Of a stretch of 64,000 nucleotides of DNA, positions 39,345 through 42,939 are shown piece after piece. A program made the translations under genes and the position numbers. Location: NCBI GenBank assembly GCA_008933615.1, contig WBUR01000001.1, positions 1 through 64,000 on the forward strand, in the 5' to 3' direction. Under the pieces are notes generated by a model. The model made no database searches. It was not told the origin of the DNA and saw only the letters and a program-made list of their open reading frames with translations. Each line of letters begins with the position of its first letter. Position 1 is the first letter of the stretch. This DNA comes from a bacterium. GTDB lineage: Bacteria > CLD3 > SB21.

Positions 39345-39377
39345 TTTACTTTTTTAACATTGAGTGAGGAGAATCCG

Positions 39378-40649
39378 ATGAAAAGTCTATTTTTTATTGT
39401 CTTTGTAGTTCTGGCCGCAAAGTGCGATGCGCAAACATCTCAGGAATTTTTTCAATCAAAATATCGCGAAGGCGTTAAGGCGTATGAATCCAAAGATTAT
39501 TTTGCGTTCATTCGGGCGATGCAATCGGCTGACTCCGTGCGTCCGAATACGTATTCCATTTTATATAACATTGCCGGAGGACAAGCGCTGACGGGACAGA
39601 GCGATGCTTCTTTGAAATCACTTGCGAAAGCCGTCTGGATCAATGTATCCAAACAATTTATGAACGACAGTGATTTTGTTTCTATTTGGAATACGCCCGG
39701 CATGAAAGATATCTTTACATTGATCGACAGCATCAATAAACCCATCTCGTTGACCGAAACGGCATTCACCATGGAAGATAACGGCTTTCATCCGGAAGGC
39801 ATCGCGTATGACGCCAAGACGAAGCGTTTTTTTATTGGCAGTATCCGTCAAAGAACAATAGCCGTTCGCGATGAAAAAGGAACTGTAAACACTAGCTTCT
39901 TCAAAAAAACAGATCGGCTGTTTTGCGTTATGGGAATGAAGGTTGACTCGAAACGCCGCGCTTTGTGGGTCGCAACAAGCGTGATGCCGGAGATGACCGG
40001 ATATGCCGATTCACTCCAAGGTAAAGCGGCCGTGGCACGATTTAATATCGATTCGGGTGATCTGGAAAAAATATATTCCATCGCCGGTGAACATGTGTTC
40101 GGCGACCTGGCTATCCATCCGTCGGGCGACGTTTATATTTCCGACAGCGGAGAACCGTCCTTATATAAGATCAGCTCAAAAGACGATCAGTTAAAACTCT
40201 GGCTCACATTTCCCACCGCGTGGAACTTGCAAGGATTGGATTTTTCTTCCGATGGTAACACACTTTTCGTCGCGGACTACATATCCGGATTGTACTGCGT
40301 GTCTCTTAAAACGCAAACCATCGATAAGATCGGATTTGATACGCCGAACGCCTTGAGAGGAATTGACGGTTTATATTTTTATAAAAACAGTTTGCTGGCG
40401 TTGCAAAATGGGACAAACCCTTTACGTGCGTGCCGTTATTATCTGAATAACGATCAAACGCGAATCACCAAAATGGAATTTGTGGAAAAGGCAACGGATA
40501 ATCTAGGAGAACCCACACTGGGCGTCGTTTCCGGTGACACGTTCTATTTCATTGCCAATAGCCCGTGGGGCGCGTACGACAGAAAACATCAATTCGACGC
40601 ATCAAAGGCGCAGAAGCCGGTGGTGAGGAAGTACGAGATGGGGAGATGA
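39378..40649 (+). CDS. secreted TPR-like/SMP-30-type beta-propeller protein
   Basis: A 423-aa exported protein. The signal peptide (KSLFFIVFVVLAAKCDA) is followed by a helical TPR-like region (about 20-115; YREGVKAYESKDYFAFIRAM, SLKSLAKAVWINV). A six-bladed propeller resembling SMP-30/gluconolactonase or NHL proteins comes next (FHPEGIAYDAKTKRFFIGSI, GDLAIHPSGDVYISDSG, LQGLDFSSDGNTLFVADYIS). ATG at 39378 has GAGGAG upstream. Ligand or substrate unknown. A palindromic repeat begins 5 nt after the stop. Confidence 0.75.
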   Translation: MKSLFFIVFVVLAAKCDAQTSQEFFQSKYREGVKAYESKDYFAFIRAMQSADSVRPNTYSILYNIAGGQALTGQSDASLKSLAKAVWINVSKQFMNDSDFVSIWNTPGMKDIFTLIDSINKPISLTETAFTMEDNGFHPEGIAYDAKTKRFFIGSIRQRTIAVRDEKGTVNTSFFKKTDRLFCVMGMKVDSKRRALWVATSVMPEMTGYADSLQGKAAVARFNIDSGDLEKIYSIAGEHVFGDLAIHPSGDVYISDSGEPSLYKISSKDDQLKLWLTFPTAWNLQGLDFSSDGNTLFVADYISGLYCVSLKTQTIDKIGFDTPNALRGIDGLYFYKNSLLALQNGTNPLRACRYYLNNDQTRITKMEFVEKATDNLGEPTLGVVSGDTFYFIANSPWGAYDRKHQFDASKAQKPVVRKYEMGR

Positions 40650-40653
40650 AATC

Positions 40654-40723
40654 ATTTCCCGCAGATCACGCAGATTTTCGCGGAAATTTTATCTGCGTAA
40701 ATTAGCGAAATCTGCGGGAGATG
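40654..40723. repeat. CGCAGAT palindromic repeat, copy 1
   Basis: About 70 nt, starting ATTTCCCGCAGATCACGCAG and ending AGCGAAATCTGCGGGAG. It is internally palindromic (CCCGCAGAT at one end, ATCTGCGGG at the other) and nearly identical to copy 3 at 42715-42783. A half copy lies at 42175-42216. Confidence 0.9.
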
Positions 40724-40858
40724 GACTCACCGTTTATTCGTTTTCGAAAATTTATTCAGGTATATATACTAATTCGATTTCTATAATATGATACTTGAAA
40801 ATGTCCTAATTTTTTTTGAATATCATTGATGACATGCACCTCAAACGATAGAGATAAA

Positions 40859-41125
40859 ATGCGTCGAACAAAAAATCGCAGCATAATGGAAAGGGTTGTT
40901 TTTAGAGGTAAAAAATATCCACTAAGAAGTTTGTTTTTGGATACTTTATCAGAGGAAGTTATAATTTCCACCACTGATCTAAACGATGTAATTCTAAATA
41001 AATGTGGGGCTTATATTTCAAAAAAAGCAAGATTACTTGATGAAATCATTTTTTTCTTTGTTGAAAAAAATGAAATCGAGTTAAGCATCAATGATCTAAA
41101 TCGAATAATTAAAGAAGCAATATGA
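40859..41125 (+). CDS. small unknown protein, partner of the nuclease-like gene
   Basis: An 88-aa protein from ATG 40859 (in-frame alternatives at 40829 and 40886). No family recognised. It is basic at the N-terminus (MRRTKNRSIMERVVFRGKKY) and helical at the C-terminus (LDEIIFFFVEKNEIELSIND). Its stop overlaps the start of the next gene by 4 nt (ATGA), so the two are translationally coupled. The AT-rich composition differs from the flanking propeller and peptidase genes. Confidence 0.65.
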   Translation: MRRTKNRSIMERVVFRGKKYPLRSLFLDTLSEEVIISTTDLNDVILNKCGAYISKKARLLDEIIFFFVEKNEIELSINDLNRIIKEAI

Positions 41126-41628
41126 TAAGATTTCAATGTTTCCCCAGGTCCCAAGGAATCACACAGAGTCTTAAGTCTGTAATTGATTGTTTTCAGAAAG
41201 AAGAAGATAAAATAAAATCACCTGAAAACAATCTTTCATCCAATGATGTTTTGGAAATAATAAGACCGCATTTAGAAGCGATTAGTTATACTGTCGAAAG
41301 CGGTAAATCAAGAGAAAAAAAAATAAGCGTCCCTGTCTTATTCGGATTTGATGATACTATTGATAAGTCATTTAATGCTGATGCTATTAGTGAAGATGAA
41401 AAAATTGTAATTGAAGTTGAAGCAGGTAGGGCTGTTGCTAATAATCAATTCCTAAAAGACATATTTCAAGCTTGCATGATGTTTCAAGTCGAGCATTTGA
41501 TTGTTGCGGTAAGAAATGAGTACAGAGGAGCGGATGATTTTCAAAAAGTTTATACATTTTTGGAAACACTTTATATTTCAAACAGATTACATCTTCCTTT
41601 GAAGGGAATATTGCTGATTGGGTATTGA
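41122..41628 (+). CDS. PD-(D/E)XK nuclease-like protein of unknown function
   Basis: A 168-aa soluble protein. The core reads AISYTVESGKSREKKISVPV, then LFGF, FNADAISEDEKIVIEVEAGR and FLKDIFQACMMFQVEHLIVA. An Asp followed some residues later by ExE on a strand (NADA...IEVEAGR) resembles the active-site arrangement of restriction-endonuclease-like folds, with Arg near the usual Lys position. Conserved-looking segments resemble widely scattered hypothetical proteins. A nuclease role is inferred from pattern only. Coupled to the 88-aa gene upstream. Confidence 0.65.
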   Translation: MIRFQCFPRSQGITQSLKSVIDCFQKEEDKIKSPENNLSSNDVLEIIRPHLEAISYTVESGKSREKKISVPVLFGFDDTIDKSFNADAISEDEKIVIEVEAGRAVANNQFLKDIFQACMMFQVEHLIVAVRNEYRGADDFQKVYTFLETLYISNRLHLPLKGILLIGY

Positions 41629-41827
41629 TGTTTGAAAGCGAAAAAACATAGGTTATTGAAATCTCTAGACCTGCTTTCTCCGTTTTTGGGAACATCAAAT
41701 AAGAAATAACCTGCCAATGTGTATTAATAAAATCGAATCCATACTATCGAGAAACGACCCATCTATATCGTAGCAGATACCAAATGGGCATGGAAAAGTA
41801 AAATTTATTTAAGATCATCTCCACTAC

Positions 41828-42121
41828 TTAGAAATCTCTATCCAAATCTTGTTTGATTTCTTTAACCCACATTAATTGATATCCGGCAGATTCATCAGAA
41901 TTCAAGAAATCCATATCCATTTTAAGCCAAAATTTCTTAATACTCCAATTCTTTCCTAGTTTTTTTCTCAAATCATTTTCCACATCTTTTTCGTCAGAAT
42001 CTGTAAAAAAAGCCACTATTTGAACCAGAGCTTCTTTTTCACTTTGGGCATAAAATTGTTTTAGAAATACGCTTTCATAAAGTCCGGATATGAACTCAAA
42101 TTTGCACAAAAAATATTTCAT
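41828..42121 (-). CDS. small unknown protein in the repeat-bounded island
   Basis: A 97-aa soluble protein, no family recognised. It begins MKYFLCKFEFISGLYESVFL and contains an acidic helix (FFTDSDEKDVENDLRKKLGK) and aromatic residues near the end (YQLMWVKEIKQDL). ATG at 42121 is preferred over an upstream in-frame start because GAGAGG lies 5 nt before it. It is convergent with the nuclease-like gene, with a 200-nt AT-rich gap between them. Confidence 0.6.
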   Translation of the reverse strand: MKYFLCKFEFISGLYESVFLKQFYAQSEKEALVQIVAFFTDSDEKDVENDLRKKLGKNWSIKKFWLKMDMDFLNSDESAGYQLMWVKEIKQDLDRDF

Positions 42122-42174
42122 ATGATCCTCTCTCAAAATGATTGTTAATACAACACAATATTATGGATATCGTT

Positions 42175-42216
42175 GAATATATTTTCTGCGTAAATCCGCG
42201 AAATCTGCGGGAAATG
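42175..42216. repeat. CGCAGAT repeat, half copy 2
   Basis: TTCTGCGTAAATCCGCGAAA followed by TCTGCGGGAAATGA matches the right half of copies 1 and 3. It lies 16 nt past the stop of the GxxExxY gene. Confidence 0.85.
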
Positions 42217-42231
42217 ACTTCGGGGATGTAT

Positions 42232-42609
42232 TCACAGCTTATTCACCTTCCTGAAAATGCTTTCCGTAATATCATCTGTATTGAAATTTACCAATATCCC
42301 AAGCCTCTTCCCGGATAGTTTCAAGTAAGTCAACACAACCTTGTGATGCACCTCTGCCAGTTGTTCCACCGATTTAACCTCGATGATCACAAGTTCATTT
42401 ACCAAAATATCAAGCCTGAATCCGACCTCTAAGCGCTCATCTTCATAAACAACAGGCAAGGGAACCTCGGTTTTCACCTGCAATCCGGCTTTCTTTAGTT
42501 CATATACTAAAGCAGCCACATAGACTGATTCAAGTAAACCCGGACCAAGAGCATTGTATACTTTGAAAATAGCGCCTCTGATTAGGTATGAAATATCGTT
42601 TTCGTTCAT
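42232..42609 (-). CDS. GxxExxY protein (PD-(D/E)XK nuclease-like)
   Basis: A 125-aa protein of the GxxExxY family (TIGR04256 type). The naming motif is seen in LGPGLLESVYVAALVYEL (G-L-L-E-S-V-Y, about residues 24-30). It is followed by a nuclease-like core, FRLDILVNELVIIEVKSVEQ (Asp, then E-x-K). The family is common in environmental bacteria and its role is unknown; a nuclease fold has been proposed. The gene is bracketed by CGCAGAT-type repeats, copy 2 on its 3' side and copy 3 on its 5' side. Confidence 0.92.
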   Translation of the reverse strand: MNENDISYLIRGAIFKVYNALGPGLLESVYVAALVYELKKAGLQVKTEVPLPVVYEDERLEVGFRLDILVNELVIIEVKSVEQLAEVHHKVVLTYLKLSGKRLGILVNFNTDDITESIFRKVNKL

Positions 42610-42939
42610 TAAATATGGCGTTGCTTATGGATTCTTCAAAATTGCATTACTACAAGTTAAACTCATTTGATCTATGCTTTCGCTCAAATTTTGACCGAAA
42701 ATATCACCTAAAACATTTCCCGCAGATCGCGCAGATTTTCGCAGAAACTTTATCTGCGTTGATGTGCGAAATCTGCAGGAGACTTTTTAAATTCTTTCCT
42801 TTGAATTATTCAATAAAATGAAATAAGTTGATTTAAAGACTGAACATCCTATTCTGTGTTACGTATCCGATATCCAATTATCCTTTTCCTTTTCAAACGC
42901 CGTCTTTAACGATACACCACCCATAAACGGAGCGTCAAA
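42610..42939. other. 330-bp intergenic region with repeat copy 3
   Basis: Divergent spacer between the GxxExxY gene and the M1 peptidase gene. It holds repeat copy 3 (42715-42783). No convincing promoter boxes or further gene were seen. Confidence 0.5.
42715..42783. repeat. CGCAGAT palindromic repeat, copy 3
   Basis: Nearly identical to copy 1 over about 65 nt: ATTTCCCGCAGATCGCGCAG through GTGCGAAATCTGCAGGAG. It forms the right edge of the small island that starts at copy 1. Confidence 0.9.

Follow-up and report, generated by a model that had tools for sequence, protein, structure and literature searches.

The locus lies in the window, i.e. the whole 64,000-nucleotide stretch of bacterial DNA that was analysed, and comprises two near-identical palindromes of 65-70 nt each (88% identity over 73 nt), a third, partial copy between them and four small open reading frames (Table 1). 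All these features had been recorded in the initial annotation and are confirmed here, as is the start of the first palindrome 5 nt past the stop codon of an unrelated gene (ORF 39360-40649). The palindrome consensus is TCCCGCAGATnnCGCAGATTnnCGCAGA-loop-TCTGCGnnAATCnGCGnnATCTGCGGGA, with about three iterated units per arm. Folded as single-stranded DNA, copies 1 and 3 reach -20.5 and -16.9 kcal/mol, respectively, and for both of them none of 200 shuffles folds as well; the partial copy, of which the half-repeat proper spans 42179-42216, has no strong fold (z -1.5).

Table 1. Genes and palindromes at the locus (positions in the window).
Feature	Position	Strand	Remarks
Full periodic palindrome, copy 1	40654..40723	none	CGCAGAT family, gene-less; fold z -6.6
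88-aa ORF	40859..41125	+	First gene of accessory pair; outside repeat element
168-aa ORF	41122..41628	+	Second gene of pair; weak restriction-enzyme-like match
102-aa ORF (97 from ATG)	41828..42136	-	No family match
Decayed palindrome or half-arm	about 42170..42216	none	Just 3' of GxxExxY gene
GxxExxY protein, 125 aa	42232..42609	-	Predicted PD-(D/E)XK nuclease, TIGR04256/PF13366; gene of the putative element
Full periodic palindrome, copy 3	42715..42783	none	5' of GxxExxY, before M1 peptidase gene; fold z -4.2

Two of the four encoded proteins had been described as nuclease-like. This holds for the 125-aa protein, which is confidently matched by PF13366 (PDDEXK_3, E 1e-38) and TIGR04256 (GxxExxY, E 2e-39, 134.8 bits against a cut-off of 35). 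The 168-aa protein has only a sub-threshold match to a restriction enzyme (E 0.028) and, like the 88- and 102-aa proteins, gives no above-threshold match in Pfam, NCBIfam or PADLOC. Since none of the four proteins matches a known defence protein of PADLOC at E 0.1, a defence island was rejected. In the 125-aa protein, the GxxExxY motif reads GLLESVY (residues 24-30). We observed that residues E27, Y30, D67, E77, K79, Y95, N108 and F109 are invariant across 42 homologues, which indicates that the PD-(D/E)XK catalytic set (E27, D67, E77 and K79) is under constraint. The AlphaFold2 model of the protein has a pLDDT of 95.5, and its closest solved fold is Cas4 SSO0001 (4ic1, Foldseek E 9e-4), followed, more weakly, by lambda exonuclease. 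By its residues and modelled fold the protein belongs to the PD-(D/E)XK nuclease superfamily, and a nuclease activity is predicted for it. It matches no transposase family of Pfam or NCBIfam, including Y1_Tnp, and does not match the Rpn family PF04754 (Transposase_31) at E 0.1. GxxExxY is present in 138 of 148 Chryseobacterium genomes, and some genomes carry up to 17 copies. In the literature searched we found no function assigned to GxxExxY, no mention of repeats where the name is used and none of six representative repeat strings; this coverage mostly lacks subscription papers and an earlier description is possible.

The palindromes are not confined to this one locus. A BLAST search of the genome of origin (3.77 Mb, 97 contigs) gave 35 matches. 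A profile made from full-length copies, and run on 803 kb including every place matched by BLAST, located the CGCAGAT palindrome at about 28 distinct places, nearly all intergenic. Indeed, 24 of the 27 mapped copies are clear of other ORFs of at least 80 aa, and the end of a neighbouring gene is usually found within tens of nucleotides.

The initial annotation had proposed that a 2.1-kb accessory island of four genes inserts, or recombines, at the two palindromes that bound it. We therefore compared the orthologous site in congeners. Copy 1 is kept in G002 (L132) and partly in G001 (L129), copy 3 is kept in G001 and L138, and the site of the decayed copy holds a full palindrome in G001 (L129) and L138. 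In G001 (L129/L054), the SGL-like gene is still followed by the palindrome; the 102-aa gene is present, and so is GxxExxY, flanked by two full palindromes. Neither G001 nor G002 has the 88- and 168-aa genes at this site; 87 nt of other sequence take their place in G001, and 246 nt of other sequence separate palindrome 1 from GxxExxY in G002 (L132/L053). The 102-aa gene has its own, different distribution, being next to GxxExxY in G001 and L138 and absent from G002 L132. In addition, G001 carries the 88/168-aa pair at a different place (L401:1300-2003), where the 168-aa protein is 78% identical and there are no palindromes. It follows that the palindromes and GxxExxY persist while the other content comes and goes. 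The proposal is right in that the repeats belong to something mobile and that the DNA between palindrome 1 and GxxExxY has been exchanged among congeners; it is also in its favour that the flanking palindromes remain although the 88- and 168-aa genes are missing from the site in both congeners. However, the palindromes are dispersed genome-wide, congeners that lack the other genes still have palindrome 3 next to GxxExxY, and the gene pair occurs elsewhere without repeats. The palindromes are therefore not the edges of a four-gene element, and on the congener comparison and the second copy of the pair we rejected the island, which we consider extremely improbable. The unit that recurs, in many phyla, is a single GxxExxY gene with its arms.

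As regards the 88/168-aa pair itself, its presence at different sites in two congeners would be compatible with a small mobile or defence module of two genes. The 168-aa protein was found in none of 58 other genomes searched.

The genome of origin contains four GxxExxY genes, and each of them stands between inverted periodic arms of its own sequence. The four arm units are CGCAGAT, CACGAA, CACCGAG and CACAGATT; by locus, the arms are built on CGCAGAT in the window, CCCACGGAACACACGAA in L009, CCACGGAGACACCGAGAACACCGAG in L010 and GCCACAGATTCACAGATT in L012. We then surveyed 69 loci from unrelated genomes, which were fetched by protein similarity alone and of which 65 were testable. Of these 65 GxxExxY genes, 52 had an inverted-arm score of at least 32, compared with 8 of the 112 ORFs that lie next to them in these loci (Mann-Whitney p 9e-18). 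No shuffled flank scored as high as 32, while 20% of mismatched pairs of left and right arms did, because the CGCAGAT family is common to several loci. Twelve further genomes, from Verrucomicrobiota, Nitrospirota, Desulfuromonadales, Anaerolineae, Ignavibacteria and Bacteroidota, have 3-17 GxxExxY copies each, most of them with arms. Among the other arm units are CGCAGATT, CACAGAAA, CGCAAAG, CACGGAG, CACTGAG, CACAAAG, CATTAAG, CGAATTA and ACAGGAT, and the best self-match period of the arm units is 8-10 nt with a peak at 9. No known RNA of Rfam was matched in L009, L010, L011 or L168. In Chryseobacterium, 28 of the 30 best GxxExxY matches represent one vertically inherited locus without detectable arms, and this indicates that arms are not needed for retention of the gene.

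The armless locus (L259-L271, L273-L275, L277-L288) adjoins a beta-mannosidase-like gene and is a candidate for a domesticated copy. Long tandem palindrome arrays with conserved spacers flank GxxExxY in L067 and L169 (Saprospiraceae), L081, L094 and L095.

Arms of this kind could also be regulatory, that is, iterated operator or terminator hairpins that control GxxExxY, as an autoregulated or toxin-like gene, together with neighbouring operons, their dispersal being incidental. The closeness of gene ends to the gene-less palindromes fits with such a role, and so does the spacing of the units near one helical turn, as in operators. Nevertheless, inverted arms are present on both sides of the gene and not on the promoter side alone, the gene-less copies are polymorphic among congeners and stand at varied, unrelated genes, and GxxExxY has no recurring antitoxin-like partner. 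We thus regard a regulatory origin of the arms as very unlikely.

The sequence of the arms follows the type of the protein. In a set of 70 loci with proteins less than 75% identical to each other, the k-mer similarity of the arms rises with the identity of the proteins (Mantel r 0.21, 0 of 2000 permutations), and arm similarity is 0.43 for the nearest protein versus 0.27 overall. The same is observed at a single Chryseobacterium junction, L290, where three protein types are found in different species, each with its own pair of arms (CCACAAAAGTCACAAAAG; AAACACTTAAG; TTAACACATAAGTCACAAAG); arm scores are 42-48 for the own type and 21-36 for the other types. Within a single old insertion, that at the L168 locus, covariation of the left and right arms is no greater than expected by chance (p 0.47), so that co-evolution of both arms within one insertion is unsupported there and the covariation concerns element types only.

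These results bear on the possibility that the palindromes are moved by an enzyme other than GxxExxY, be it a Y1 transposase of the REP-associated type or a recombinase of the host, and that GxxExxY is a captured passenger. Y1 transposase genes are indeed present in the same genomes (four in G000), and some genomes without GxxExxY retain gene-less palindromes. However, the Y1 genes tested from the same phylum, including those of the genome of origin, are accompanied by short REP-like hairpins of their own or by nothing, and none of them by a CGCAGAT palindrome; mobilisation by Y1/RAYT enzymes was rejected on this ground. Furthermore, a passenger would not be expected to show one gene family in many phyla with many unrelated arm types, nor arms that track the protein. 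We consider this explanation quite unlikely.

We also asked whether sites with and without the unit can be found. Of the 148 congeners, most are empty at the L168 locus, where their sequence spans the joined flanks; in the empty alleles that were read, the two genes overlap (...TACGAAAGAAAACAAAATGCAGTCTAAAG...). The occupied allele of G144, to which those of G097, G158 and G017 are similar, reads ...GAAAGAAAACAAAATGCAGTTTAAA / TTTAACCACAAAGG...GxxExxY...CCTTTGTGGTAAAA / AAAGAAAACAAAATGCAGTCTAAAG.... In the occupied alleles both genes are intact and AAAGAAAACAAAATGCAGTYTAAA is duplicated on both sides; the target duplication in this sole clean comparison with an empty site is 19-24 bp long, its exact length being ambiguous because of A runs. 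Other species have decayed alleles at this locus, with the right arm alone left. The empty allele of the L290 junction consists of overlapping stop and start codons, TAATG, and in one species the junction is occupied by a palindrome without a gene. For three CGCAGAT palindromes of the home genus, a congener lacks the repeat at the orthologous position; elsewhere, a CGCAGAT palindrome in G000 corresponds to a CCACGGAG palindrome in G001 and G002; intergenic divergence between these three genomes is too high to place the exact boundaries of the gene-less copies. Direct repeats near the arms (score at least 10) were observed at 12 of 100 armed loci versus 0.5 expected, several of them being tandem palindrome arrays with a repeated spacer. 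In G013, the gene and a palindrome are tandemly duplicated with 98% identity.

Two side observations concern these junctions. The decayed L168 alleles of Chryseobacterium (L239, L241-L246, L248, L249) often hold a Flavo-1-RNA-like sequence at the junction, with a match to Flavo-1 (RF01705) above the gathering score in L242; it is possible that Flavo-1, too, is mobile or has a preference for sites of this kind. At the L290 junction, L350, L351 and L352 (Chryseobacterium) have REP-like hairpins (GCTTCGACTTCGCTCAGCATGACA) where others have GxxExxY units, which suggests that intergenic sites are common to unrelated palindromic elements.

The main alternative is that GxxExxY acts as an Rpn-like nuclease, which, rather than transposing a defined unit, induces RecA-independent exchange at palindromes, together with template switching there. 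This would explain the variable content between the palindromes, the tandem arrays and the decay. It agrees with the differences in content among the three congeners and with two kinds of tandem array, one consisting of palindromes and repeated spacers, the other of the gene together with a palindrome, and there is a precedent in a PD-(D/E)XK endonuclease that raises RecA-independent recombination (PMC5350276). On the other hand, the clean L168 insertion with its duplicated target and the multiple full units per genome look like the insertion of a defined unit, and the protein has no PF04754 match. An exchange of this type appears unlikely to us.

As for the vehicle and the age of the units, an armed GxxExxY unit is carried by one viral contig; with 0 in 50,697 phage records, 8 plasmid records and this single viral contig, a phage- or plasmid-borne element was rejected. 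We found no pair of identical dispersed copies, and the copies within a genome have diverged, so that any activity must be slow or old. Two equal-scoring copies in G107 were considered as a recent dispersed pair and rejected, since they are different elements. Gene-less palindromes are present in 5 of 8 genomes without GxxExxY, with a mean count of 10 versus 21 in genomes with the gene (p 0.052), and they are lacking altogether in 3 of 8 genomes without the gene versus 0 of 12 with it. Strict dependence of the gene-less palindromes on a GxxExxY gene in the same genome was therefore set aside in favour of a trend.

Taken together, the GxxExxY-palindrome unit is apparently a widespread and undescribed kind of tiny mobile DNA unit. 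We think it probable that the window copy is a very small mobile element of about 0.45-0.6 kb, the nuclease of which acts on its own palindromic ends, and that the gene-less palindromes are its MITE- or REPIN-like derivatives. The element would consist of the GxxExxY PD-(D/E)XK gene between inverted arms, or full palindromes, of units of about 9 nt. The nuclease would bind to the repeated units in the arms that flank its gene, which may be extruded into a hairpin or cruciform, and would cut the arms, the target or both. The DNA, with or without the gene, would then be joined into intergenic sites via staggered breaks and host repair, whereby the target between the staggered breaks would be duplicated (about 20 bp in one clean case). 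The palindromes without a gene would have arisen by internal deletion, or by the joining of two arms, and would be moved in trans. That the GxxExxY protein itself cuts and moves the DNA, and in this order of steps, is what we infer from the comparisons above.

By analogy, the functionally closest system is that of the REPtrons and TIRtrons, in which a RAYT (REP-associated tyrosine transposase) gene is found with REPs or long TIRs, although the enzyme is unrelated. RAYTs are HUH/Y1 tyrosine transposases and REPs are hairpins of 20-40 nt with GTAG or CGTC tags (PMC3733652). As in REPtrons, a single small gene of nuclease type stands inside inverted palindromic repeats, gene-less copies lie between genes, and a genome has several sequence families, each with its own gene. 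In contrast, the gene inside the repeats encodes a 125-aa PD-(D/E)XK protein (PF13366/TIGR04256) and not an HUH/Y1 enzyme, the palindrome has 65-70 nt in units of about 9 nt instead of a tagged REP of 20-40 nt, and the Y1 genes that these genomes do have are at other places and next to different hairpins. The unit recalls insertion sequences and MITEs by its inverted ends, its one gene, its derivatives lacking the gene, its empty sites and, in one clean case, a target duplication; as with MITEs, the gene-less CGCAGAT palindromes match the flanks of the window GxxExxY gene, their mobilisation in trans being putative. Unlike insertion sequences, the unit has no match to a transposase family (Pfam, NCBIfam), its arms are internally periodic, its target duplication, of about 19-24 bp in the only clean case, is long, and it measures only about 0.45-0.6 kb. 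With Rpn proteins (YhgA-like, PF04754) GxxExxY shares the PD-(D/E)XK fold and horizontal spread, and PMC5350276 reports that rpnC was inserted independently at one and the same place; the protein family is nevertheless a different one, and palindromic arms are not among the reported Rpn features that we read. Cas4/RecB-type nucleases have the closest solved fold (4ic1), the same catalytic motifs and a weak profile match (E 0.03), whereas GxxExxY is a stand-alone 125-aa core with no adjoining CRISPR or helicase partner in the window. Finally, intergenic palindromic families have been described in Geobacter as 'multicopy nucleotide sequences', and the available main text of that description makes no link to GxxExxY.

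Whether GxxExxY nucleases in general mobilise a class of transposable elements that has not been described before and extends over many bacterial phyla, we hold to be evenly balanced. If so, elements of about 0.45-0.6 kb with a 125-aa protein would rank with the smallest known mobile elements that are autonomous. They would be recognised by their ends, iterated palindromes whose diversification goes along with that of the protein, and a large part of the unexplained intergenic palindromes in Bacteroidota and other phyla would derive from them. If the protein does mobilise its arms, an element with a PD-(D/E)XK enzyme only would join the known routes of DNA transposition. The link between GxxExxY and palindromic units explains a large set of dispersed intergenic repeats and gives the protein a testable role; many natural pairs of enzyme and arms are available for reading out DNA recognition.

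In this clade, the periodic palindromes or arms are often closely bordered on the outside by a second motif, GTAACTACTCAG, as seen in the genome of origin and its congeners (L010:1385-1470, L010:1855-1905, L134, L021:9388, L025:9481, L046:5957, L023:10005). It is inverted on both sides of two GxxExxY units and may be an outer end or a preferred target. In L036:17316-17500, inverted GTAACTATTCAG and CTGAGTAGTCAC are about 170 nt apart and enclose a different inverted repeat and no gene.
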